DNA from: Vicinamibacterales bacterium | GTDB taxonomy: Bacteria; Acidobacteriota; Vicinamibacteria; Vicinamibacterales; UBA2999 | Reading direction: 5' to 3' | Length of the DNA: 64,000 nt | NCBI GenBank assembly: GCA_030680175.1 | Contig: JAUXWO010000075.1 | Span: forward strand, 1-64,000 | Shown here: piece by piece, positions 9 to 11,356 of the stretch | Position numbering within the stretch: position 1 is the stretch's first letter | How the letters are laid out: every line of letters starts with the position of its first letter | The notes under the pieces: generated by a model | The model's input: only the letters and a program-made list of their open reading frames with translations | What the model was told of the DNA's origin: nothing | Database searches by the model: none | Program-made: the position numbers and the translations under genes

Positions 9-2351
9 TCATCGTCCGCAAGGGGCAGGTCGCGCCGTCGATCCGAGCTGCCGCAGTACGAGGCGCTCCACCTCATCGGGGTCCGGCAGCAGCCACGCCG
101 GATCCGGCGCGCGGTCCGTTTCCGGAAACCGCACCACGAACCCATCGTCGCCCCACATCGTGTCGACGTCGAGGCCGGTCTCTTCCCGCACCTTCGCCGC
201 GACGGCGATGGCCCACGGCGCGTGCACGCGCCCGCCGAGCGCCGAGACGACGGCCACGCGCCAGTCGCCGAGTTCGTCCGGGGTGCGCTCGATGAGCAGC
301 GTCCGGTCGTCGGGGACGACGCCGGCCGCCGCGGCCTGATCCGCGAGGTACTGCAGCAGGGTCTCGGCCGCACGGGCGTCGAGTCCGTGGTCCGCCTCGA
401 GCCGGGCCAGCGCGCCGGCGCGCGGCAGGCGACCCAGCTCACGGACGAGCCGTCCGATGGCGAGCCCGAGTTCGATGGGCCGGCCCGCGGACTCGCCCTT
501 CCAGAACGGCATCTTGCCGGGCTCGCCCGGCGCCGGCGACACGAGCACCCGGTCGTGCGTGATCGCCTCGATGCGCCACGTCGACGCGCCCAGCACGAAC
601 GTCTCGCCGGCGCGCGCCTCGAACACCATCTCCTCGTCGAGCTCGCCGACGCGTGCGTGCTGACGATCGGCGCCGGCGAGGAACACGCCGTAGAGGCCGC
701 GATCCGGGATCGTGCCGGCGTTGGCGATGGCGACCCGCTTCGCGCCGTCGCGCGCGGTGACCATGCCGCCGATCCGGTCCCAGGTCACACGCGGCCGCAG
801 CTCCGCGAACTCGTCCGACGGATAGCGGCCCGCGAGCATGTCGAGGACGCTGTCGAACGCGCGCCGGCCGAGCGCCGCGTACGGCGCGGCCCCGCGCACC
901 GCGGCGTACAGGCCGTCCACCGGCCAGGCGTCCATCGCGGTCATCGCCACGATCTGCTGCGCGAGCACGTCGAGCGGGTTGCGTGGATACCGTGACGGCT
1001 CCACCTCGCCCCGTTGCATCGCGCGCGACACGGCGGCGCAGGCCACGAGGTCCCCGCGGAACTTGGGGATGACGATGCCCGTGCTGACCTCGTTGACGTG
1101 GTGGCCCGCGCGTCCGATGCGCTGCAGGCCGCTCGCGACGGAGGGCGGCGCCTCGATCTGAACGACGAGGTCGATGGCGCCCATGTCGATGCCGAGCTCG
1201 AGCGACGAGGTGGCGACGAGCCCCCGCAGCTGGCCCGCCTTCAGCAGGTCCTCGATCTCCTCGCGCTGCGCCCGGGCGAGCGACCCGTGGTGCGCGCGGA
1301 CGAGGGGCGCGCCCGCCAGCTCGTTGAGCGCGCCCGCCAGGCGTTCGGCGAGCCGCCGGCTGTTGACGAAGAGGAGCGTCGAGCGGTGCGCGCGGACGAG
1401 CTCGAGCAGCCGCGGGTGGATGCTGCTCCAGATTGAGGGCGGGGCCGCCGGCCGCGAGGCCGGCCCGCTCTGGACGGCCGGATCGCCTGGCCGCGCCATG
1501 TCCTCGATGGGCACTTCCACCGTGATCGACACCTGCTTCGGCGTGCTGGCGTCGACGATGGTGACGGGGCGGTAGGTGACGGAGCCGTGGACGTCCGTGA
1601 ACTCGTCGTGGATCGCGGGCCTCGGATCCGCGGGCCTCGGATCCGGAGGCACGCGGACGCGGGACCTCGCCGCCGCTCGCGGCGGCCGGTTCGTCGCCCC
1701 GCCGAGGTACCGCGCGACCTCCTCGAGCGGACGCTGCGTGGCGGAGAGGCCGATGCGCTGCACCGGCTGGCGCGCGAGGGCCTCGAGGCGTTCGAGCGAC
1801 AACGCCAGGTGGGCGCCTCGCTTGGTGGGCACGAGCGCGTGGATCTCGTCCACGATCACCGTCTCGACCGACCGCAGGCGCTCGCGCGCCTGCGAGGTGA
1901 GCAGCAGGAACAGCGACTCGGGGGTCGTGATGAGGATGTCGGCGGCGTGCCGCTGGAACCGCGCACGGTCGGCGGGCGGGGTGTCGCCGGTGCGGATGGC
2001 GATCGACGGCCGCCTGCAGGCGACGCCCTGAGCCTCGGCGAGGCGGGCAATCCCGGCCAGCGGCGCGCGCAGGTTGCGCTCGACGTCGACGGCCAGCGCT
2101 TTGAGGGGCGAGAGGTAGAGGACCCGCGCGCCCGGGTCCGTGGCCGGCCGCGCCTCGAACATCAGGCGGTGGAGGCACCAGAGGAACGCCGCCAGCGTCT
2201 TGCCGGTGCCGGTGGGCGCGAGGATCAGCGTCGACTCGCCGCGCGCGATGGCCGGCCATCCCAGGCGCTGGGCGCGGGTCGGGCCCCCAAAGGCGTCGCG
2301 AAACCACGCCTGCACGGCCGGATGAAACAGGGAGAGCACGTCGCGCGCCAT
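9..2351 (-). CDS. lhr: Lhr-type DEAD/DEAH-box DNA helicase, C-terminally shortened
   Basis: This is a superfamily 2 ATP-dependent helicase of the Lhr family, whose members act in DNA repair. From the chosen ATG the protein is 780 aa. Walker A APTGTGKT lies at residues 45-52, the DEIH box follows near residue 165, and helicase domain 2 with the Lhr winged-helix/core region comes after. I chose the start at MARDVLSLF because upstream in-frame sequence is arginine-rich and unlike the family. The family sequence runs on past a conserved DPDEVERLVLRQLGSTA stretch, but here it continues only as RPAPCGR and stops. Full-length Lhr proteins are about 1500 aa. The break lies within 45 bases of the window edge, so a true truncation, a frameshift or an assembly junction are all possible. 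A 15-bp direct repeat at 1614-1643 encodes a DPRPA duplication. Confidence 0.85.
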   Translation of the reverse strand: MARDVLSLFHPAVQAWFRDAFGGPTRAQRLGWPAIARGESTLILAPTGTGKTLAAFLWCLHRLMFEARPATDPGARVLYLSPLKALAVDVERNLRAPLAGIARLAEAQGVACRRPSIAIRTGDTPPADRARFQRHAADILITTPESLFLLLTSQARERLRSVETVIVDEIHALVPTKRGAHLALSLERLEALARQPVQRIGLSATQRPLEEVARYLGGATNRPPRAAARSRVRVPPDPRPADPRPAIHDEFTDVHGSVTYRPVTIVDASTPKQVSITVEVPIEDMARPGDPAVQSGPASRPAAPPSIWSSIHPRLLELVRAHRSTLLFVNSRRLAERLAGALNELAGAPLVRAHHGSLARAQREEIEDLLKAGQLRGLVATSSLELGIDMGAIDLVVQIEAPPSVASGLQRIGRAGHHVNEVSTGIVIPKFRGDLVACAAVSRAMQRGEVEPSRYPRNPLDVLAQQIVAMTAMDAWPVDGLYAAVRGAAPYAALGRRAFDSVLDMLAGRYPSDEFAELRPRVTWDRIGGMVTARDGAKRVAIANAGTIPDRGLYGVFLAGADRQHARVGELDEEMVFEARAGETFVLGASTWRIEAITHDRVLVSPAPGEPGKMPFWKGESAGRPIELGLAIGRLVRELGRLPRAGALARLEADHGLDARAAETLLQYLADQAAAAGVVPDDRTLLIERTPDELGDWRVAVVSALGGRVHAPWAIAVAAKVREETGLDVDTMWGDDGFVVRFPETDRAPDPAWLLPDPDEVERLVLRQLGSTARPAPCGR

Positions 2352-2527
2352 TGGGAACCGATCGCCTGGTCGATCATACGCGGCCGGCCGCCGCCGGAAT
2401 TTCTTTTGTCTCCGGCCCGTGCGCGCCGGTCCGCCTCCGTATAATGGAGAGATACCGACCGGCGCCCGGGTCCGGCCGTCAGGCCGTCGACGCGGGCGGG
2501 ACCAGCAAGAGAGGACAGACCGCAATC

Positions 2528-2785
2528 ATGGGTGACGCCGCAGAAGGACTGATTGACGCCGACAGCCGAATCCAGGAACGCATGGAGGAGCTCGAGGAGT
2601 CGCGCCGCAACGCCAGGAAGCCGCACGCGAAGGTCGACCCCGAGAAGGCGCGGCAGCTCGAGTCGTGCCGCCTCGCGCGCACCGAGCTCGAGCAGCAGAT
2701 GGTGCTCACGACCCATCCCGTCCGGCGTGACCAGATCACGCAGGCCGTCGCCGAGCTCGACCGCCGCATCGCGCAGCTCGCCTAG
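2528..2785 (+). CDS. small helical protein of unknown function
   Basis: An 85-aa highly charged protein (MGDAAEGLIDADSRIQ start) that looks mostly helical, with a probable coiled coil at residues 10-35 and again at 50-85. I do not recognise the family. The ATG is preceded by a purine-rich AGAGAGGA ribosome-binding site. A TATAAT hexamer at 2440-2445 lies 82 bases upstream and is a plausible -10 element, though I see no good -35. The gene is divergent from the helicase and convergent with the kinase gene. Coding is supported by the RBS, by strong third-position GC, and by a complete ORF bounded by a hairpin. A small regulatory or structural protein is possible, but nothing in the sequence decides that. 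Confidence 0.6.
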   Translation: MGDAAEGLIDADSRIQERMEELEESRRNARKPHAKVDPEKARQLESCRLARTELEQQMVLTTHPVRRDQITQAVAELDRRIAQLA

Positions 2786-2791
2786 ACGTCC

Positions 2792-2819
2792 ACGCGCCGG
2801 GGCGTCCGTCCCGGCGCGT
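2792..2819. terminator. hairpin between convergent genes
   Basis: A 10-bp perfect GC-rich stem (arms 2792-2801 and 2810-2819, 8-nt loop) lies between the stop of the small helical protein and the convergent stop of the kinase gene. There is no T-run on either side, so intrinsic termination is uncertain. The location suggests a bidirectional transcript end or 3'-end stabiliser. Confidence 0.5.
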
Positions 2820-2824
2820 TCCCG

Positions 2825-5806
2825 CTACAGCGCCTTGAACAGCGCGTCGGCGAACGCCGCCGGCGTGGCCGGACGCCCGTCCGGATCGAGCGCCAGCGCG
2901 CGCATCACCAGCGGCGCGAGCGCGGCCGGCAGCGCGTCGGCCCCCGAGGGCGCGGCCGAGGCCTGCTGCAGGCCCACATCCAGCAGCGATCCGGTGCCGA
3001 ACGGCAGCGTGCCGGTCAGCGCCTCGAACGTCATCACGCCCAGGCTGTAGACGTCGGCGCGCACATCGATGGCGCCGCCGCGCAACTGCTCCGGCGCCAT
3101 GTAGGCCGGGGTGCCCACGATCGTCGCGTGCGCGGTGAACGTGGCCACCTCGTCGGTCGCGCCGTCTGCCACCTTCGCCACGCCGAAATCCAGGACCTTG
3201 GGGCCGGCGCCGCTGGCGGGCAGCAGCACGTTCTCCGGCTTCAGGTCGCGGTGCAGCACGCCCGCGTCGTGCGCGGCCTGCACGCCGCCGGCGATCGCCT
3301 GCAGCAGCGGCACCAGGCGGCCGGGCTCGAGCCGGCGCTCGCGCTTCAGCAGCCCGCGGAAGTCTTCGCCCCGCACGAACTCCATCACGAGATAGGCGGT
3401 GCCGTCCGGCAGCGTGCCGTAGTCGAACACCGCGACGATGGCGGGATGCTGGAGGCGCGCGACGATCTGCGCCTCGCGGCGGAAGCGCGCCCGCGCCTCG
3501 CTCGAGCCGAGCAGGTCAGCGCGCACGATCTTGATCGCCACATCGCGGTCGAGCCGCACATCGCGCGCGCGGAACACCGACCCCATCCCGCCGCGTCCGA
3601 CGAGCGCGTCCACGCGGTACTTGCCGTCGACGATCGGCGGCAGGCTCGGCACCGGCACGAGCCCCGCCCCATCATCGGGGCACACGAGCCGGGAGAGGTC
3701 GACGCAGCGCAGGCAGGCCGGGCAGCTCCCGAGCACGGACAGGGCCACCGTGCCCGCCGTGTCCGGCGCGGCCAGGCGCACCGTGGGGGTCGAGGCCGCC
3801 GCCGTGATCGCCGTGCCGGCCGCCGGTGCGGTGGCGCGCCGCTGCAGGCGCGTCAGGTTCAGGGCGACGCCCATCTGCGCCGCGATGGCGCTCAGCAGCT
3901 GCCGATCCTCGGCCGTGTAGGGCTCTTCCGACCGCTTCTGGCCGAGCCCGATCAGGCCGACGAGCGAGGGCGTGCCGTCACCGCCGGCGAAGATCGGCAC
4001 GAGCAGCGTCGTGCCGGTCGTGGCCAGCCACTGCCGGTCGTCGGCCGGCAGCCGCGCCGCCGGCGATCGGTCATCGTCGAGGAACACCTCGAGGGGTTCG
4101 TGCGACCACTGCAGCAGGGTGACGAGCCCGCTCCCGAGCGGCAGCGGCGCGGTTTCACGGTGCACCGACGACACGGGGACCAGGGTGTCGCCCTCGATCA
4201 CGGCGAGCACGGCGAGCGATTCGGGGGCGAGCGCGCGTTCGACGTGCGTCAGCACGAGCGACACCAGCTCGCGCGGATCCGTCTCGTACGGGACGCGGCT
4301 CGCGAGGGACAGCAGGATCTCGCGCGCGTCGTACGCCTCGCGGAAGAACCGCTGATCGAGCCACCGCTGCGCGGCGTCGCGATAGCGGATCCCGAGGCCG
4401 ACGAGGGCGAGCGTGATCACGTAGAAGAGCGGCTGGCCGAGGATGATGTCGGCGAGCGGCCGGTCGCGATTGACGATGAGCGACCAGACGAGCGCCGCGA
4501 CCGGCAGGACGATGACGGCGGAGAGCGTGCGGCGTGCCAGCGCGTACTGGAGGCCGCGCCGCAGCACCGTCCGCGGGCTGAACACGTGGCGCACCGCCAC
4601 CGCGTACGGCAGCCCGAACGCCGGGAGCAGCACGATGGCCTGGAGGAGCGCGGCCAGGGGCAGCGGCAGCGAGAGCGGCACGCCGGCGAGGCCGGCCACG
4701 AGCGGCAGGCCCTCCTTGAGCGCGTAGGCGAACACGGCGGGCACGCCCGTGAAGACGACGATCTCGATGCGCCGCCGCTCCGTGTGATCGAGCGAGTGGC
4801 GGTAGCGCTGGATGCCCTCGGCCACGATCGCGACGTTGGCGGCCAGCGCGAGGGCGAACGACGCGTCGTAGATCCAGCCGCGCGCGGCCAGCCACGCGAG
4901 CGGGCCGAGCGCGGCGTCCACGCCCAGCAGCACCAGCGCCGACACGCCCCCGACCATCAGCATCGGAAGGGCGAGGGCGGCGATGGCGGGCACGATCCAC
5001 GGCGCGCGGTCGAGGAGCGGCGCGCGGTGCGGGAAGTACAGCACCGCAAGGCCGATCACCGGGAACGCGAGCGGCGTCACGAGCCAGCCGAAGATCACGA
5101 GCAGGTCGCGGAGCACGCCCGGCAGCGCGCCTTCGGTCCCCGCGAGCGAGCCGCCGTTGCCGATGGCGGTGAAGAGGAGCGCGAGCGTCATGAGCCGCGC
5201 GGTGGCGCCGCTCGTGCCGAGGGCGATCAGCACGATCGCGCCGAGGGTGAAGGCGGCCATCTGCGCCAGCGGGCCGGCGTGCTCGGCGAGCCAGGCGCGG
5301 CGTGCGTCCGCGGGCAGCGCCCAGGCGGGCACGGGCGCGAGCGTCACCTCGCGGGGCGGGCCGCCGGCGGCGGGCGCGACGGTCATGGTGAGCGGGCGCG
5401 CGCGGTCCAGCCAGTAGCCCTCGCGCCAGAGCCGGAGTTGCGCCGCCGCCTCGTCCGGCAGCGTCGCGCCGGCGTCGAAGACGCGGCCGCGTCCATCCGC
5501 GATGCGCAGCACGGCGTCGCCGGCGGCGAGCCCGGCTCCGGCCGCGGAGCCATCCGTGGTGATCTCGAGAACCACGAGCGGCCCGGCCGCCTCGTCGAGG
5601 GCGGGCGGACGTGCGACGCGCAGCCGCCCGGGGGCGGCCAGGCCCCCCGTCATGGTGTCGCCTGAGAGCGTGAGTCCGATTCCGCCGGGCCAGAGGAACG
5701 GACGGACGAGCCCGGCGTGGAGGCCGAGGGCCAGGACGGAGAGGAGGGCGACGAGGCTGACGCCGGCAAATGCCCGGGTAAGCCTGAGGCCCGGCAGGGC
5801 AGTCAT
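2825..5806 (-). CDS. multidomain membrane Ser/Thr protein kinase (PDZ-like, polytopic membrane, GAF, zinc-ribbon-like, kinase)
   Basis: A 993-aa Hanks-type kinase with an unusual order of domains. Residues 12-33 form an N-terminal membrane anchor. Residues 40-150 resemble a PDZ domain with a GLAAGD turn, probably periplasmic. Residues 180-475 contain about eight hydrophobic segments. Residues 490-655 are a GAF-like sensor. A short CPACLRC...CPDD cysteine cluster lies at 695-711. The kinase fills residues 725-993, with glycine loop GRGGMG 738-743, lysine 759, HRDLKPEN 852-859, DFG 873-875 and APE 904-906, so all catalytic residues are present and it should be active. The likely role is transducing an envelope or small-molecule signal to cytoplasmic phosphorylation. 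The substrate and ligand cannot be read from sequence. Kinases fused to 7TM/GAF modules are frequent in Acidobacteriota and Myxococcota. Confidence 0.88.
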   Translation of the reverse strand: MTALPGLRLTRAFAGVSLVALLSVLALGLHAGLVRPFLWPGGIGLTLSGDTMTGGLAAPGRLRVARPPALDEAAGPLVVLEITTDGSAAGAGLAAGDAVLRIADGRGRVFDAGATLPDEAAAQLRLWREGYWLDRARPLTMTVAPAAGGPPREVTLAPVPAWALPADARRAWLAEHAGPLAQMAAFTLGAIVLIALGTSGATARLMTLALLFTAIGNGGSLAGTEGALPGVLRDLLVIFGWLVTPLAFPVIGLAVLYFPHRAPLLDRAPWIVPAIAALALPMLMVGGVSALVLLGVDAALGPLAWLAARGWIYDASFALALAANVAIVAEGIQRYRHSLDHTERRRIEIVVFTGVPAVFAYALKEGLPLVAGLAGVPLSLPLPLAALLQAIVLLPAFGLPYAVAVRHVFSPRTVLRRGLQYALARRTLSAVIVLPVAALVWSLIVNRDRPLADIILGQPLFYVITLALVGLGIRYRDAAQRWLDQRFFREAYDAREILLSLASRVPYETDPRELVSLVLTHVERALAPESLAVLAVIEGDTLVPVSSVHRETAPLPLGSGLVTLLQWSHEPLEVFLDDDRSPAARLPADDRQWLATTGTTLLVPIFAGGDGTPSLVGLIGLGQKRSEEPYTAEDRQLLSAIAAQMGVALNLTRLQRRATAPAAGTAITAAASTPTVRLAAPDTAGTVALSVLGSCPACLRCVDLSRLVCPDDGAGLVPVPSLPPIVDGKYRVDALVGRGGMGSVFRARDVRLDRDVAIKIVRADLLGSSEARARFRREAQIVARLQHPAIVAVFDYGTLPDGTAYLVMEFVRGEDFRGLLKRERRLEPGRLVPLLQAIAGGVQAAHDAGVLHRDLKPENVLLPASGAGPKVLDFGVAKVADGATDEVATFTAHATIVGTPAYMAPEQLRGGAIDVRADVYSLGVMTFEALTGTLPFGTGSLLDVGLQQASAAPSGADALPAALAPLVMRALALDPDGRPATPAAFADALFKAL

Positions 5807-5841
5807 GTGGAGGGCATTCTAGTTCGGCGCCGAGCCACCCC

Positions 5842-5929
5842 GGCACTTCGGCACCCCGGCACCCCGGCACTTCGGCACTTCGGCACCCCGGCATCCCGGC
5901 ACTTCGGCACCTCCGCACCTCCGCACCTA
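5842..5929. repeat. 8-bp tandem repeat array, GGCACTTC/GGCACCCC units
   Basis: Eleven consecutive 8-bp units fill most of the gap upstream of the nuo promoter. Two unit types alternate irregularly, GGCACTTC and GGCACCCC, differing by a coupled CC/TT change. The last units drift to GGCACCTC and CGCACCTC. The same two-state unit appears with a 9-bp period inside alr at 41591-41761. No ORF or hairpin explains the array. Confidence 0.85.
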
Positions 5930-5950
5930 TTTACTACTCCGCTAAGGCGT

Positions 5951-5980
5951 TTGACTGCGGCTGCGGTCGTCCATTAGCAT
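5951..5980 (+). promoter_or_regulatory. sigma70-type promoter of the nuo operon
   Basis: TTGACT at 5951-5956 and TAGCAT at 5975-5980 are separated by 18 bp in the only AT-richer stretch of this intergenic region. It starts about 80 bases before nuoA and just after the 8-bp repeat array, which fits the main promoter of the complex I operon. Confidence 0.6.
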
Positions 5981-6060
5981 TGCACCTGCACTTGCGAAAT
6001 CCTTCACAAGCTGTGATCGTCGGCGGCGCGGCGTAGGCGCGGCCTCGGAGCGGGACGGGT

Positions 6061-6478
6061 ATGGAAGGCTGGGGCGGCATCGGCGTCATGATGGCCGTGG
6101 CGATCGGGTTCGGGATCTCCTCCGTGATCCTGTCCCAGTTCCTCGGCCCCAGTAATCCCACCCCCGAGAAGGAGGCGCCGTACGAGTGCGGCGTGCCGCC
6201 GGTCGGCGACGCGCGCGAGCGCCAGTCGGTGAAGTTCTACCTCGTCGCGATGATCTTCCTCCTGTTCGACATCGAAGTCGCCTTCCTCTACCCCTGGGCC
6301 ATGGCGCTGCGCGACCTGGGCTGGTTCGGGCTGGCGCAGATCACGGTCTTCATCCTCATCCTGCTGGTCGGCTACATCTACATCTGGCGCAAGGGTGTGC
6401 TCGACTGGGGGCCGGAGAGCGACCCCGATTACCACGTGGCGAAGGTCCTCGGGCCGTCGGTCGTGAAGAGGTACCGGT

Positions 6479-6495
<17 letters not shown>
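6061..6495 (+). CDS. nuoA: NADH-quinone oxidoreductase subunit A
   Basis: A 144-aa membrane subunit of complex I with three transmembrane helices. It is part of the region joining the peripheral arm to the proton-pumping arm near the quinone site. Hallmarks are the YECG motif near residue 41, in the loop after helix 1, and [12 protein letters not shown] in helix 2. The ATG is preceded by a GGAGCGGGA ribosome-binding site. It is the first gene of the nuo operon and overlaps nuoB by 17 bases, which suggests translational coupling. The length is normal for the family (about 120-145 aa). Confidence 0.96.
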
Positions 6496-6946
<451 letters not shown>

Positions 6947-6967
6947 CAGCCGCGCGGCAGGCGCAGC

Positions 6968-6991
6968 GCCGACAGCCGACAGCCGAGAGCC
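6968..6991. repeat. AGCCGACAGCCGAGAGCC-type intergenic repeat
   Basis: A short-period run of GCCGACA/GCCGAGA units lies between nuoB and nuoC. Related runs lie at 8143-8203, 39838-39871, 43026-43060 and 54785-54850, always in gaps just upstream of a gene. It is not a hairpin and not coding. Confidence 0.7.
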
Positions 6992-7003
6992 TCAAGCATC
7001 TTC

Positions 7004-7564
7004 ATGACTGCTTCAGATATCATTGCCGCGCTTGAACCCCTGGTGCCGGGCGTCGTTTACGAGGCCGGCACGTCGAGCGACGAGTCGCGCACGCCGACGA
7101 TCCTCCTCCCCGCCGAGGCGCTGCTGGCCACGTGCGAGGCGCTGCGCTCGGGGCCGGGGCTCGAGTTCGTGGCGTTCTCGAACGTGACGGCCGTGGATTA
7201 CCATCCCGGGCGTGACCCGCGGTTCGAGGTCGTCTATCACCTCGTGTCGCCGCACCGGCGTGCGCGGGTGCGGCTGAAGGTGCGGGTGGGCGCGGACCAG
7301 TCGATCGCGTCGGTCACCTCCGTCTGGCCCGGCGCCGGCTGGCCCGAGCGCGAGGTGTTCGACCTGTTCGGCATCGTGTTCGACGGCCACGAGGATCTGC
7401 GGCGCCTGCTGATGCCCGAGGACTGGGAAGGCCATCCCCTGCGGAAGGACTACCCGGTGCAGCTCCGCAAGGAGGCCAAGACGTACATGCCGCTCCAGGT
7501 GACGGCCGAGGAGTTCCGCGCCAGCATGGAACGCGACCGCCACGTGCGGTCGAAGCCGGAGTAG
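7004..7564 (+). CDS. nuoC: NADH-quinone oxidoreductase subunit C
   Basis: A 186-aa peripheral-arm subunit (30-kDa type) that packs against NuoD at the base of the hydrophilic arm. The C-terminal half has the family signature WPGAGWPEREVFDLFGI followed by DLRRLLMPEDWEGHPLRKDY. NuoC and NuoD are separate genes here, unlike the fused NuoCD of enterobacteria, and are split by gmhA. The ATG at 7004 gives the usual N-terminus. The next gene starts 9 bases downstream. Confidence 0.96.
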   Translation: MTASDIIAALEPLVPGVVYEAGTSSDESRTPTILLPAEALLATCEALRSGPGLEFVAFSNVTAVDYHPGRDPRFEVVYHLVSPHRRARVRLKVRVGADQSIASVTSVWPGAGWPEREVFDLFGIVFDGHEDLRRLLMPEDWEGHPLRKDYPVQLRKEAKTYMPLQVTAEEFRASMERDRHVRSKPE

Positions 7565-7573
7565 CAGGCGCCG

Positions 7574-8152
7574 ATGACCGAACGCCGGCGGGCGGCGATC
7601 GATCGGGGGCTCGAGGCGGCCAGCGCCGCGCACCTCCGCCTGCGGGGGGACGGCGCCGGCCCCATCGCCGCGGCGGCGGGCGCGATTGTCGAGGCGCTCG
7701 GGCAGGGGCGGATGGTGCTGGTGTTCGGCAATGGCGGCAGCGCCGCCGATGCCCAGCACTTCGCGGCTGAACTGGCCGGCCGGTTCGTGAAGGAGCGGCG
7801 CGGGTGGCCGGCGGTGGCGCTCACGACCGACACGAGCGCGCTGACGGCGATCGGCAACGACTACGGGTTCGCGCAGGTGTTCGCGCGGCAGGTCGAGGCG
7901 CTCGGGCGGGCCGGCGACGTGGCGATCGGCATCACGACGAGCGGCGCCTCGCCGAACGTGGTGGCGGCGCTCGACGCGGCGCGCGCGCGGGGCCTGGTGA
8001 CCATCGCGCTGACGGGCCGGGACGGCGGGGCCGCGGGGCAGACGGCGGCGATCCACGTCAACGTCGCCGAGACGGTGACGGCGCGGATCCAGGAGGTGCA
8101 CATGACGGTGCTCCACCTGATCTGCGAAATCGTCGATGAAGAATTGAGCTGA
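7574..8152 (+). CDS. gmhA: D-sedoheptulose-7-phosphate isomerase (SIS domain)
   Basis: A 192-aa SIS-domain protein closely resembling GmhA/LpcA, which converts sedoheptulose 7-phosphate to D-glycero-D-manno-heptose 7-phosphate, the first step of heptose precursor synthesis for LPS or capsule. Sequence support includes the sugar-phosphate loop FGNGGSAADAQHFAAEL (residues about 51-67), a second SIS serine-rich loop ITTSGASPN, and the C-terminal RIQEVHM helix with the conserved glutamine and histidine. The length equals the family norm. It is embedded in the nuo operon between nuoC (9 bp away) and nuoD, although its pathway partner, the heptose kinase, is about 20 kb away on the other strand. 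Co-transcription with complex I is inferred. Confidence 0.93.
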   Translation: MTERRRAAIDRGLEAASAAHLRLRGDGAGPIAAAAGAIVEALGQGRMVLVFGNGGSAADAQHFAAELAGRFVKERRGWPAVALTTDTSALTAIGNDYGFAQVFARQVEALGRAGDVAIGITTSGASPNVVAALDAARARGLVTIALTGRDGGAAGQTAAIHVNVAETVTARIQEVHMTVLHLICEIVDEELS

Positions 8153-8203
8153 GAGCTGATCGCCGAAAGCTGGGAGCCGAAGGCCGACAGCCGAGAGCCG
8201 CCA
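8143..8203. repeat. AGCTGAGAGCTGA/AGCCGAAGGCC-type intergenic repeat
   Basis: A short-period repeat runs from the last codons of gmhA through most of the gap before nuoD. It uses the same AGCCGA unit as the run between nuoB and nuoC, with interspersed AGCTGA variants. The gmhA stop codon lies inside it. Confidence 0.65.
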
Positions 8204-8216
8204 GCGTAAGAACCAT

Positions 8217-9398
8217 ATGGCTGACGTCCGCACTGAAACGATGACCGTCAACATGGGGCCCCAGCACCCCAGCACGCACGGCGTGCTGCGGCTGGTGCTG
8301 GAGCTCGATGGCGAGACCGTCGTGTCCGTGTCGCCGACGATCGGCTACCTGCACACGGGCATCGAGAAGACGGCCGAGCAGAAGAAGTGGCAGCAGGTGA
8401 TCCCGCTCGTCGAGCGCATGGACTACCTCGCGGCGCAGTCCAACAGCCTCGCCTTCTGCCTGTCGGTCGAGAAGCTCCTCGACATCGAGGTGCCCGACCG
8501 CGTGCGGTGGATCCGCGTGCTCATCGCCGAGCTGCAGCGCATCAGCAGCCACCTGGTGTGGTTCGGCACGCACGCGATGGAGATTGGCGCCATCACCGGC
8601 ATGCTCTACGCGTTCCGCGAGCGCGAGCTGCTGATGAACCTCAACGAGCTGCTCGCCGGCTTCCGCTTCTTCCCGAGCTACATTCGCGTCGGCGGCCTGC
8701 GCGAGGACCTGCCGCGCGGCTACAAGGAAGCGGTCACCGCCTTCCTCGACCGCTTCCCGGGCAAGCTCGACGAGTACGAGACGCTCATCACCAAGAACCC
8801 GATCTGGCTCGACCGGACGCGGGGCGTCGGCGCCATCTCGCTCGAGGACGCGTACGCGTGGGGGCTGTTCGGCCCGATTGCGCGGGCGGCCGGCGGCGAC
8901 TACGACGTGCGGCGCGCGTTCCCGTACCTCGGCTACGAGACGTTCGACTTCGACGTGATCGGCGCCAGCAACGGCGACGTCTACGACCGCTACCTGGTGC
9001 GCGTCGCCGAGATGCGGGAGAGCGTGAAGATCTGCCGCCAGGCCCTCGAGCGCATCGACCCGGTGGGCGCGTGGGGCGTCGACGACCCGCGCATCGTGCC
9101 GCCGCCGAAGGATCGCGTGTATACCGAGATGGAAGCGCTCATCCAGCACTTCCTGATCTACTCGCAGGGGTTCAACGTGCCGGCGGGCGAGGCCTACGTG
9201 CCGGTCGAAGGCCCCCGCGGCGAGCATGGCTGCTACGTGGTGTCCGACGGCAGCAACCGCCCGTGGCGCGTGCACATGCGGTCGCCCGGGCTGATGGCCA
9301 GCCAGGCGCTGCACAAGTTCATCGTCGGCGGCATGATTGCGGACGTCATCGCGGTCATCGGATCGCTGGACGTGGTGATGGGAGACGTGGATCGATGA
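8217..9398 (+). CDS. nuoD: NADH-quinone oxidoreductase subunit D
   Basis: A 393-aa peripheral-arm subunit (49-kDa type), related to the large subunit of NiFe hydrogenases, that forms the quinone cavity with NuoB. The N-terminus has the invariant MGPQHPSTHGVLRL motif and the GYLHTGIEK sequence. The C-terminus ends in the family pattern IGSLDVVMGDVDR. The start ATG sits directly after an intergenic repeat. The stop overlaps the start of nuoEF as ATGA, so translation is coupled. Length and motifs are normal. Confidence 0.97.
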   Translation: MADVRTETMTVNMGPQHPSTHGVLRLVLELDGETVVSVSPTIGYLHTGIEKTAEQKKWQQVIPLVERMDYLAAQSNSLAFCLSVEKLLDIEVPDRVRWIRVLIAELQRISSHLVWFGTHAMEIGAITGMLYAFRERELLMNLNELLAGFRFFPSYIRVGGLREDLPRGYKEAVTAFLDRFPGKLDEYETLITKNPIWLDRTRGVGAISLEDAYAWGLFGPIARAAGGDYDVRRAFPYLGYETFDFDVIGASNGDVYDRYLVRVAEMRESVKICRQALERIDPVGAWGVDDPRIVPPPKDRVYTEMEALIQHFLIYSQGFNVPAGEAYVPVEGPRGEHGCYVVSDGSNRPWRVHMRSPGLMASQALHKFIVGGMIADVIAVIGSLDVVMGDVDR

Positions 9399-11356
9399 GC
9401 TTTCATCCGGTCATGCCGTACGGGACGGAGCGCTGGCACCGGTCGGAACGCAAGACGCTGCCCGAGGGCCCGGAGTTCCAGTTCACGGCGGAGGCCCGTG
9501 CGCGGTTCGAGGCGTTCGCGGCGCACTACGCGCCCGAGCACCGGCGGTCGGCCGTGCTGCACGCGCTCTACCTGGCGCAGGAGCAGCAGGGCTACATCTC
9601 GGCGAACGCGGTGCGCCACGTGGCGGAGGTCATCGGCTGCACGACGGCCGACGTCGAGGACGTCGTCTCCTACTACGTGATGTTCCACCGCGCGCCGGTC
9701 GGCACCTACGTGCTGCAGGTCTGCACGACGCTGTCGTGTGCGCTGGCCGGGGCCGAGCGCGTCGTGGAGGAACTCTGCGAGCTGCTGCAGATTCGCCCGG
9801 GCGAGACCGATCCCACGGGCCTCTTCACCGTCCAGAAGATGGAATGCCTCGGCGCGTGCGACCGCGCGCCGGTGATGATGGTGAACAACGAGCACTGGCA
9901 CGAGGCGCTCCAGCCCGGCCAGGCGGCCGGCCTGCTGGCGCGGATGAAGACCGACGGCGTCACGGCGCTCTCGGGCTGCCATCTCGACGTCGAGCATCAG
10001 CCCGGCGCGGGCCAGGGCCGGTCGACCACCCCGGCGCACGGGAAGGCGGCGGCGACGTACGAGCCGGTCCTGACCAAGTACGCGTTCACGCCGAACGGCT
10101 TCACGCTGGATCACTACCGCCAGCATCAGCAGGGGTACGAGGGCCTGAAGAAGGCGCTCACGCTCACGCCCGATCAGGTGATCGAGGAAGTGAAGGCGTC
10201 GGGGCTGCGCGGGCGCGGCGGCGCCGGCTTCCCGACCGGGCTCAAGTGGCAGTTCGTCGACAAGAAGTCGCCGAAGCCGAAGTACATCGTCTGCAACGCC
10301 GACGAGAGCGAGCCGGGCACCTTCAAGGATCACCTGCTGATGGAGCGGAATCCCCATCTGCTGGTCGAGGGGTGCCTCATCGGCTGCTACGCCATCGGCG
10401 CGAAGGCCGCCTACATCTACATCCGCGGCGAGTTCTACCACCTGTTCCCGGCGATGGAGCGCGCCATCGAGGAGGCGCGGCAGGCCGGGCTGCTCGGGAC
10501 GAACATCCTCGGGTCGGGCTTCGACTGCGAGGTGTACCTGCACCGCGGGGCCGGCGCGTACGAGGCGGGGGAGGAGACGGCGCTGCTCGAGTCGCTCGAG
10601 GGCAAGCGCGCGCAGCCGCGCTTCAAGCCGCCGTTCCCGGCCTCGCACGGCGCGTGGGGCTGCCCGACGGCGGTCAACAACGTCGAGACGCTCTGCAACG
10701 TGCCGATCGTGATGACGCGCGGGGCCGGCTGGTACGCCGCGCTCGGGCCGGAGAAGAACGGCGGACCGAAGCTGTTCTGCGTCAGCGGCCACGTGAAGCG
10801 TCCCGGGGTGTTCGAAGCCCCCATGCACGTGACGCTGCGCGAGCTGATCTTCGACTACGCCGGCGGCATGCGCGACGGGCACACGCTCAAGGCCGTGATC
10901 CCCGGCGGGTCGTCGGTGCCGATTCTCCTGCCGGACCAGATCGACATCCCGGCGAGCTTCGACGAGGTGGCGAAGGCGGGGTCGCTGCTCGGCTCGGCGG
11001 CCATCATGGTGCTCGACGAGACGACCGACATGGTGTGGCTCGCCGACAACCTGCTGCACTTCTACCGCCACGAGTCGTGCGGCAAGTGCACGCCCTGCCG
11101 CGAGGGCACCGACTGGCTCTGGAAGCTCCTGCAGCGCCTGCTGAAGGGCGAGGGCCGGGAGAAGGACATCGCGCTGCTCGAGAGCGTCGCGCAGCAGATC
11201 AACGGGAAGACGCTCTGCGCGTTCGGCGACGCCGCCGCGACGCCGGTGCTCACGACCATCAAGCACTTCCGCGCGGAGTTCGAGGCGTACGTGCGCGGCG
11301 AGCAGCCGCCGCCGGCCGACTACCGCGCGCGGCAGCCGGTGGGCGCGGACCACTAG
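9395..11356 (+). CDS. nuoEF: fused NADH-quinone oxidoreductase subunits E and F
   Basis: One uninterrupted 653-aa reading frame covers two complex I subunits. Residues 1-185 are NuoE, the thioredoxin-fold 2Fe-2S protein, with ligands C110, C115, C151 and C155. Residues 186-222 are a flexible linker rich in Gly, Ala and Thr. Residues 223-653 are NuoF, which binds FMN and NADH through GRGGAGFPTG (about 272-281) and holds cluster N3 via C562, C565, C568 and C608. No start codon with a ribosome-binding site precedes the NuoF part, so a true fusion is the simplest reading. It overlaps nuoD by four bases. nuoG would normally follow, but it is absent from the operon. Confidence 0.92.
   Translation: MSFHPVMPYGTERWHRSERKTLPEGPEFQFTAEARARFEAFAAHYAPEHRRSAVLHALYLAQEQQGYISANAVRHVAEVIGCTTADVEDVVSYYVMFHRAPVGTYVLQVCTTLSCALAGAERVVEELCELLQIRPGETDPTGLFTVQKMECLGACDRAPVMMVNNEHWHEALQPGQAAGLLARMKTDGVTALSGCHLDVEHQPGAGQGRSTTPAHGKAAATYEPVLTKYAFTPNGFTLDHYRQHQQGYEGLKKALTLTPDQVIEEVKASGLRGRGGAGFPTGLKWQFVDKKSPKPKYIVCNADESEPGTFKDHLLMERNPHLLVEGCLIGCYAIGAKAAYIYIRGEFYHLFPAMERAIEEARQAGLLGTNILGSGFDCEVYLHRGAGAYEAGEETALLESLEGKRAQPRFKPPFPASHGAWGCPTAVNNVETLCNVPIVMTRGAGWYAALGPEKNGGPKLFCVSGHVKRPGVFEAPMHVTLRELIFDYAGGMRDGHTLKAVIPGGSSVPILLPDQIDIPASFDEVAKAGSLLGSAAIMVLDETTDMVWLADNLLHFYRHESCGKCTPCREGTDWLWKLLQRLLKGEGREKDIALLESVAQQINGKTLCAFGDAAATPVLTTIKHFRAEFEAYVRGEQPPPADYRARQPVGADH

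Follow-up and report, generated by a model that had tools for sequence, protein, structure and literature searches.

The window analysed here, a stretch of 64,000 nucleotides from a Vicinamibacterales bacterium (contig JAUXWO010000075.1, positions 1 to 64,000 of the forward strand), carries on its minus strand, at 2825-5806, a gene for a protein of 993 residues in which a sensor half laid out like that of the histidine kinase ComP is joined to a Hanks-type Ser/Thr kinase. Our analysis indicates that the product is probably a membrane receptor kinase, signalling through its membrane bundle and its GAF domain. The open reading frame has 993 codons, an ATG start and 0 internal stops, and 4 codons precede the ATG in the stop-to-stop frame, which is 997 codons long. 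By model or homology, the order in the chain is helix 1, PDZ domain, nine-helix bundle, GAF domain, four cysteines and complete kinase, and the features, all on the minus strand, are as follows (aa, amino acid residues; TM, transmembrane helix; pLDDT, predicted local distance difference test score).

2825..5806, minus strand: whole gene, ComP-like sensor / Ser/Thr protein kinase, 993 aa (open reading frame, Pfam, AlphaFold2 model)
5696..5776, minus strand: TM helix 1 (aa 11-37), N-terminus predicted to be inside (AlphaFold2 helix 11-37, hydropathy peak)
5312..5695, minus strand: predicted extracytoplasmic PDZ domain (aa 38-165, core 78-156; AlphaFold2 model, family profile, structure matches)
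4340..5311, minus strand: nine-helix membrane domain (aa 166-489, TM2-TM10; AlphaFold2 helices, conserved positions)
3830..4327, minus strand: GAF domain (aa 494-659; Pfam GAF_2, alpha/beta layout in the model)
3743..3826, minus strand: low-confidence linker (aa 661-688; pLDDT <50)
3674..3724, minus strand: four-cysteine stretch C695-x2-C698-x2-C701-x7-C709 (aa 695-711), putative zinc knuckle (sequence)
2831..3622, minus strand: Hanks-type Ser/Thr kinase domain (aa 729-992; Pkinase, invariant residues, match by the structure aligner VIA)

A whole-chain AlphaFold2 model, built on 25 aligned kinase-type rows (mean pLDDT 82.8, predicted template modelling score, pTM, 0.52), places a helix at 11-37, a beta/alpha domain at 45-156, nine membrane helices within 166-489 and an alpha/beta GAF domain at 494-659, followed by a low-confidence segment (661-688) and the kinase. 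An earlier, sequence-only reading of this DNA had proposed the order PDZ, membrane, GAF, cysteine cluster and kinase, and this order is borne out by Pfam, by a family profile and by the models; the outcome that would have spoken against that reading, models lacking a PDZ or GAF fold, did not arise in the models of the PDZ alone and of the whole chain. Its parts were also recovered individually: the outside PDZ-like domain as a PDZ by family profile and model, with the outside location predicted, the GAF domain above the Pfam cut-off and in the model, at a predicted inside location, the cysteine cluster directly before the kinase as C695, C698, C701 and C709, and the intact Ser/Thr kinase with its catalytic residues present. 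The earlier count of about eight helices was too low, since the model has ten, one before the PDZ and nine after it.

The catalytic half was recognised most directly. Pfam Pkinase (PF00069) matched aa 730-984 above its cut-off (E 2e-46), and in the 25 rows K759, E778, H852-R853-D854, N859, D873, G875 and P905-E906 are invariant and F874 nearly so. The VAIK lysine and the HRD, DFG and APE motifs that define Hanks-type kinases are all present, and the catalytic domain is thus complete. The closest structure is Mycobacterium tuberculosis PknB (VIA Z 30.9 over 255 residues, 2.2 Å, 40% identity), so that the fold is shared with the PknB/Stk1 kinases carrying PASTA repeats, but the window protein differs from these by its ten-helix sensor at the N-terminus, and a Pfam scan of the protein found no PASTA repeat. 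The NCBIfam model for PknB/Stk1 PASTA kinases (NF033483) scored 273 bits against a cut-off of 450, matching only aa 725-990, which leaves the protein outside that family. No HisKA/HATPase_c catalytic part was found in the Pfam scan.

The N-terminal domain called for indirect methods. The Pfam scan of the 993-residue protein itself gave no PDZ match at E<=1, and the single N-terminal sequence gave weak matches against the Protein Data Bank (PDB; E 0.02 to 0.6). In the same region of relatives, PDZ_6 was matched in 13 of the 25 rows of the kinase set, several of which are cut at the N-terminus, PDZ_2 in 31 of the 51 rows of a second set, and PDZ_6 in 13 of the 21 proteins of a third. A PDZ profile was assembled from 61 regions, the window's own and 60 from relatives; 17 loci that offered no usable PDZ region were removed before alignment, and 60 of the 80 rows left were used. 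Against PDB sequences this profile gave 428 matches at E<=0.01, and the best 60 of these include DegP (E 1.7e-26), DegQ, RseP, DegS, HtrA and others. Because kinases filled the fold comparison of the whole chain with the PDB, the PDZ was also modelled separately. The isolated model of aa 36-166 has a pLDDT of 79, with block values of 67-97 from aa 76 on; Foldseek returned PDZ-bearing entries in 50 of the 50 rows listed (best RseP PDZ1, E 5e-3, probability 1.00), and VIA-align returned PDZ or the PDZ-like GRASP in 50 of 50 rows listed. We conclude that, on family sequences and models, the PDZ is real at the level of fold and family, and it is the family sequence profile that carries this claim.

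In the model, TM2-TM6 span 166-195, 201-218, 230-257, 271-293 and 310-337, and TM7-TM10 span 341-373, 382-404, 411-445 and 459-489, with segments 382-392 and 394-404 counted as one helix. The domain ends in the linker motif D-Q-R-F-F-R-E-A-Y-D-A. Positions of the membrane part conserved in at least 75% of 75 rows (254-259, 344-353, 396-407, 416-424 and 484-498) sit at or near the cytosolic ends of helices and in the linker after helix 10, where the conserved residues are D484, F487, R489, Y492 and D493. Pfam scans of 97 proteins (for the second set, 25 of 26 families) matched no recognised membrane-domain family in more than one protein, HisKA_7TM, MtrF and MASE4 being found in one protein each.

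Behind the bundle, Pfam GAF_2 matched aa 508-649 (E 4e-9, 37.3 bits against a cut-off of 28.6), and the Pfam GAF model scored 32 bits against a cut-off of 22.4. The four cysteines that follow may bind zinc. A like pattern, C-x2-C-G-x-C with a further C, is present in 16 of the 19 kinase proteins of the third set, and was seen by eye in 15 of 22 printed kinase rows, the window protein included, the other 11 of 33 eligible rows being left unprinted because the glycine-loop expression was unmatched; the window protein has L where the relatives' pattern has G. The four-cysteine pattern is absent from all six orthologs of genus g2, and Pfam Zn_ribbon_3 was matched in 1 of the 21 third-set proteins.

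ComP-type heads are known from peptide-pheromone histidine kinases. ComP of Bacillus amyloliquefaciens is predicted to have ten helices, with a PDZ-fold loop between helices 1 and 2 (PMC9620489, available text), and one helix before the PDZ and nine after it is described as characteristic of ComP-like kinases (PMC3353171, available text). The predicted model of the window protein has this layout of one helix, PDZ and nine helices at the N-terminus and, as in ComP-type histidine kinases going by these partial accounts, a cytosolic alpha/beta region before the catalytic part; unlike in ComP, its output is a Hanks Ser/Thr kinase following four cysteines, with no HisKA/HATPase_c. We use ComP-like for a likeness of layout, judged from published descriptions, and make no claim of membership. 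In the available text of a census of microbial PDZ proteins (PMC6411480), ComP is the only signalling class among the classified PDZ families, and its Table 1 gives the class for Acidobacteria as 8 proteins in 6 genomes, which are perhaps histidine kinases of a PDZ-GAF-PAS-HisKA type such as the one described below. The word PDZ does not occur in the available text of PMC1262709, on kinase architectures, and a search of the open-access literature by titles and the starts of abstracts found no PDZ sensor on a Ser/Thr kinase, which does not prove that none exists. The protein would thus represent, as far as layout goes, a new form of ComP-kind receptor, in an architecture that recurs in Acidobacteriota and for which we found no earlier account.

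The sequence-only reading had suggested looking for the same order in other genomes, and it does recur elsewhere in the phylum Acidobacteriota. Close orthologs were found in 10 of 98 relatives from the family and order, besides the own genome, with 46-60% identity in the best sensor-half segment, and, in a phylum sample of 297 genomes, in 3 of the 296 others. More distant sensor-half relatives occur in 89 of 99 genomes, the own included (E<=1e-3), and, at a stricter E of 1e-25, in 40 of the 297 genomes across the phylum. An architecture restricted to the family of the source genome was considered and rejected, same-order kinases being found in other families and orders.

Many of these relatives end in a different output. 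The second set, of 51 proteins, includes 46 SpoIIE phosphatases, 2 protein kinases and 1 HisKA/HATPase protein, and the SpoIIE/PP2C relatives, from Acidobacteriaceae, Bryobacterales, Blastocatellia, Vicinamibacteria and others, with one from Zixiibacteriota, share the PDZ, the helices, a linker of the FFREAYDA type and the GAF with the window protein but have a phosphatase in place of the kinase. The third set holds 21 proteins from 20 regions (19 kinases, 1 SpoIIE, 1 GGDEF), proportions that are not a frequency because the regions were picked by hand from 47 listed phylum-wide matches, leaning to longer frames. Another 20 regions were picked likewise from the family and order search and fetched. 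The own genome contributes a paralog, L086, in which a homologous sensor half (26.6% identity to that of the window protein over 199 residues, E 6e-11) with PDZ and GAF both above the Pfam cut-offs is joined, in difference from the window protein, to a PAS-HisKA-HATPase histidine kinase; 12 of the 20 further fetched regions contain counterparts that are 54-69% identical to it. The GGDEF case, one of the 21 scanned, is L148, where a PDZ/membrane/GAF sensor half is joined to a diguanylate cyclase (1343-4036, minus strand). At L065, two SpoIIE-type relatives lie side by side (4447-10087, plus strand), the second being short and without a PDZ by profile. At L104 (also listed as L010; genome G023), two open frames make up the ortholog, with the break near the cysteine stretch, at about 2140-2330; the cause is either a real frameshift or an assembly error. 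In a plasmid-collection search, the sensor half of L078 gave one short match in each of nine E. coli records, annotated rseP where a gene is listed, and the sensor halves of the window protein and of L086 gave no match.

Two trees were built by a quick method with outputs labelled by motif. The first (bundle-GAF region, 99 rows, 7 of them unlabelled) contains three outputs and needs 2 changes between them, with the kinases on one side of a branch of support 91, not starred. The second (117 rows, 6 unlabelled), to which the third set was added, contains four outputs and needs 3 changes, the minimum possible; a branch with support 100 sets the histidine kinases apart, and a starred group (96) unites 50 kinases with the GGDEF protein and 2 unlabelled rows. 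L079 and L128, which have long branches, were left out of the second tree, and L145 was in the Pfam scan and not in the tree. Pfam was used to check the labels of the three aligned sets, whereas L021, L116, L121, L122, L126 and L128 and the fetched histidine kinases other than L086 carry labels by motif alone. Because the trees need few changes, outputs appear to have been swapped rarely among the sampled rows. That relatives couple the same sensor half to other outputs argues, at the sequence level, that it is a self-standing receptor module. A wider version of this idea is that the nine-helix domain, which has no name and usually bears an outer PDZ, defines a ComP-like receptor family of Acidobacteriota reading peptide- or lipid-like cell-cell or membrane signals through four outputs of different chemistry (Ser/Thr kinase, PP2C phosphatase, histidine kinase and diguanylate cyclase), in which kinase and phosphatase could be opposed arms of a single signal; we regard it as conceivable but doubtful. 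With this layout occurring on Ser/Thr kinases, on PP2C phosphatases and on a GGDEF protein, there is a concrete receptor set for testing ligand and output.

Conservation differs sharply along the chain. Among the six g2 orthologs, mean identity is 78% in helices 2-10, 77% in the GAF and 76% in the kinase, but 48% in the PDZ core and 48% in the linker 660-689, and 14 PDZ residues are missing in four of the six. In an ortholog from another family, L018, only a remnant of the PDZ is left while the remainder of the chain is kept. By the 61-region profile, and counting rows uncut at the N-terminus, a PDZ is present in 35 of 47 kinase-type rows and absent from 12, as against presence in 45 of 47 SpoIIE rows, in all 12 histidine kinases and in the GGDEF protein. 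Rows from which the profile was built match it by construction, and the 12 without a PDZ include short frames of 542-735 codons, which may be broken. From these counts the kinase branch can do without the PDZ, which elsewhere is almost always present. Kinase-type loci lacking the PDZ in frames of 832-982 codons are L023, L032, L037, L102, L126, L133 and L135, the first five of which cluster together in the first tree.

These numbers bear on the suggestion, made in the sequence-only reading, that the PDZ senses misfolded envelope proteins. In its full form, the PDZ would bind the C-termini of misfolded outer-membrane or periplasmic proteins, as in DegS, and activate the kinase in envelope stress, with the GAF supplying a second signal. 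The nearest profile matches of the domain, DegP, DegQ, RseP and DegS, agree with this, and one relative, L100, adjoins ftsH, which might point the same way. A sensor of this kind would be expected to keep its PDZ, and here, of the folded domains, the PDZ core shows the lowest conservation among close orthologs, is shortened in several, mostly lost in L018 and missing from 12 of the 47 kinase-type rows counted above; the identified neighbours of the gene (nuo, an lhr-type helicase and a small open reading frame) give no pointer to envelope stress either. The proposal is not supported, and we judge it quite improbable. The losses strengthen the case, so far as sequences can make it, against a fixed PDZ input. 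The more general notion that two or more sensory modules feed one kinase is plausible.

The same losses could mean that the PDZ is decaying and functionless in the kinase branch, leaving a kinase controlled by its GAF and membrane parts only. Fast change, deletions and loss from 12 of 47 kinase rows, compared with 2 of 47 for SpoIIE and 0 of 12 for histidine kinases, fit such a course, but the window protein's own PDZ is predicted as a fold, at the block confidence given above, and G96 and D97 are retained in more than 80% of the 75 rows. The ratio of PDZ to bundle divergence is 2.13 in the own ortholog group and 2.04 in a three-row SpoIIE set (three pairs only), and rapid PDZ change alone was rejected as proof of decay on this account. 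Other sets have lower ratios (1.36 for the histidine kinases, 1.21 and 1.08), but at larger divergence, where the ratio is expected to fall by itself. Divergence ratios do not separate decay of the PDZ from its change with ligand, and we consider decay unlikely, if a little less so than an envelope-stress sensor.

We favour a receptor kinase whose main sensor would be the membrane bundle, with the GAF serving as a coupler or a second input and the PDZ as a ligand module that can be exchanged. The nine-helix bundle would detect a ligand that is extracellular or carried in the membrane, and in proteins that have a PDZ this domain would present or tune a peptide-like ligand. From the bundle, the signal would pass by its conserved cytosolic face and along the unbroken helix 459-489 to the GAF, which may act as a dimer coupler or add a cytosolic small-molecule input, and which would control the proximity or orientation of two kinase domains. 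The paired kinase domains could then autophosphorylate and go on to phosphorylate cytosolic proteins. This scheme singles out the nine-helix bundle as the part to study. Several points weigh against it. Ligand, dimer, kinase activity and substrate are proposals of this scheme, and, because the whole-model pTM is 0.52, the placement of the domains is unsure. The topology is model-based, and lysine and arginine counts (5-residue margins) back it weakly, with 2, 1, 2, 4 and 2 in the inner loops and 1, 1, 0 and 2 in the short outer loops, the large PDZ loop having 14. The fold scores of the PDZ are modest: with the aa 36-166 model, Foldseek gave no match at E<=0.001, and the best VIA-align match, CtpA (Z 8.3, 76 residues, 2.2 Å), has to be read with the tool's note that a best Z of 7-8 also arises for models without a clear match.

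The position of the gene raises one further alternative. Here and at 6 of the 10 ortholog loci examined, the kinase gene lies back to back with nuoA of the nuo operon (complex I), with the start codons 254 bases apart in this genome and about 50 in L094. The kinase might then report on respiration, the bundle reading membrane potential or the redox state of quinones and the kinase adjusting complex I or electron flow, which would account for the fixed place next to nuoA. The divergent nuo neighbour speaks for this, but all six loci come from one genus, g2, of the same family, and shared inheritance of the gene order is an equally good explanation. L100 has ftsH at that place, L016 has no nuo match in the ~1 kb upstream, and the sequences of L101 and L104 are too short to tell. 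We hold a role in respiration to be no more probable than envelope-stress sensing, and retain the receptor kinase described above as the preferred reading.

On the far side of the kinase gene, an lhr-type helicase is found in 8 of the 10 ortholog loci; at L097 no helicase match was seen within ~6 kb, and the L016 sequence stops too soon. An open reading frame of 85 codons (2528-2785, plus strand) separates the kinase gene from the helicase; it gave no Pfam match at E<=0.01 and is conserved, with 54-67% identity, in 9 of these 10 loci. A scan for promoters and terminators found one promoter-like site, on the plus strand at 5951-5980 and facing nuoA, but no site for the kinase gene. The stretch from the kinase start to nuoA contains, at 5836-5928, an 8-base tandem repeat of 11.6 copies (periods of 24 and 32 also fit), and L106, from the same genome, has a run reading CPGCPRCP in one frame. 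Inside the nuo operon, flanked by nuoC and nuoD, is a gene at 7574-8152 (plus strand) that we take to be sugar-isomerase-like, and it was matched at the same place in the six ortholog loci with nuo.

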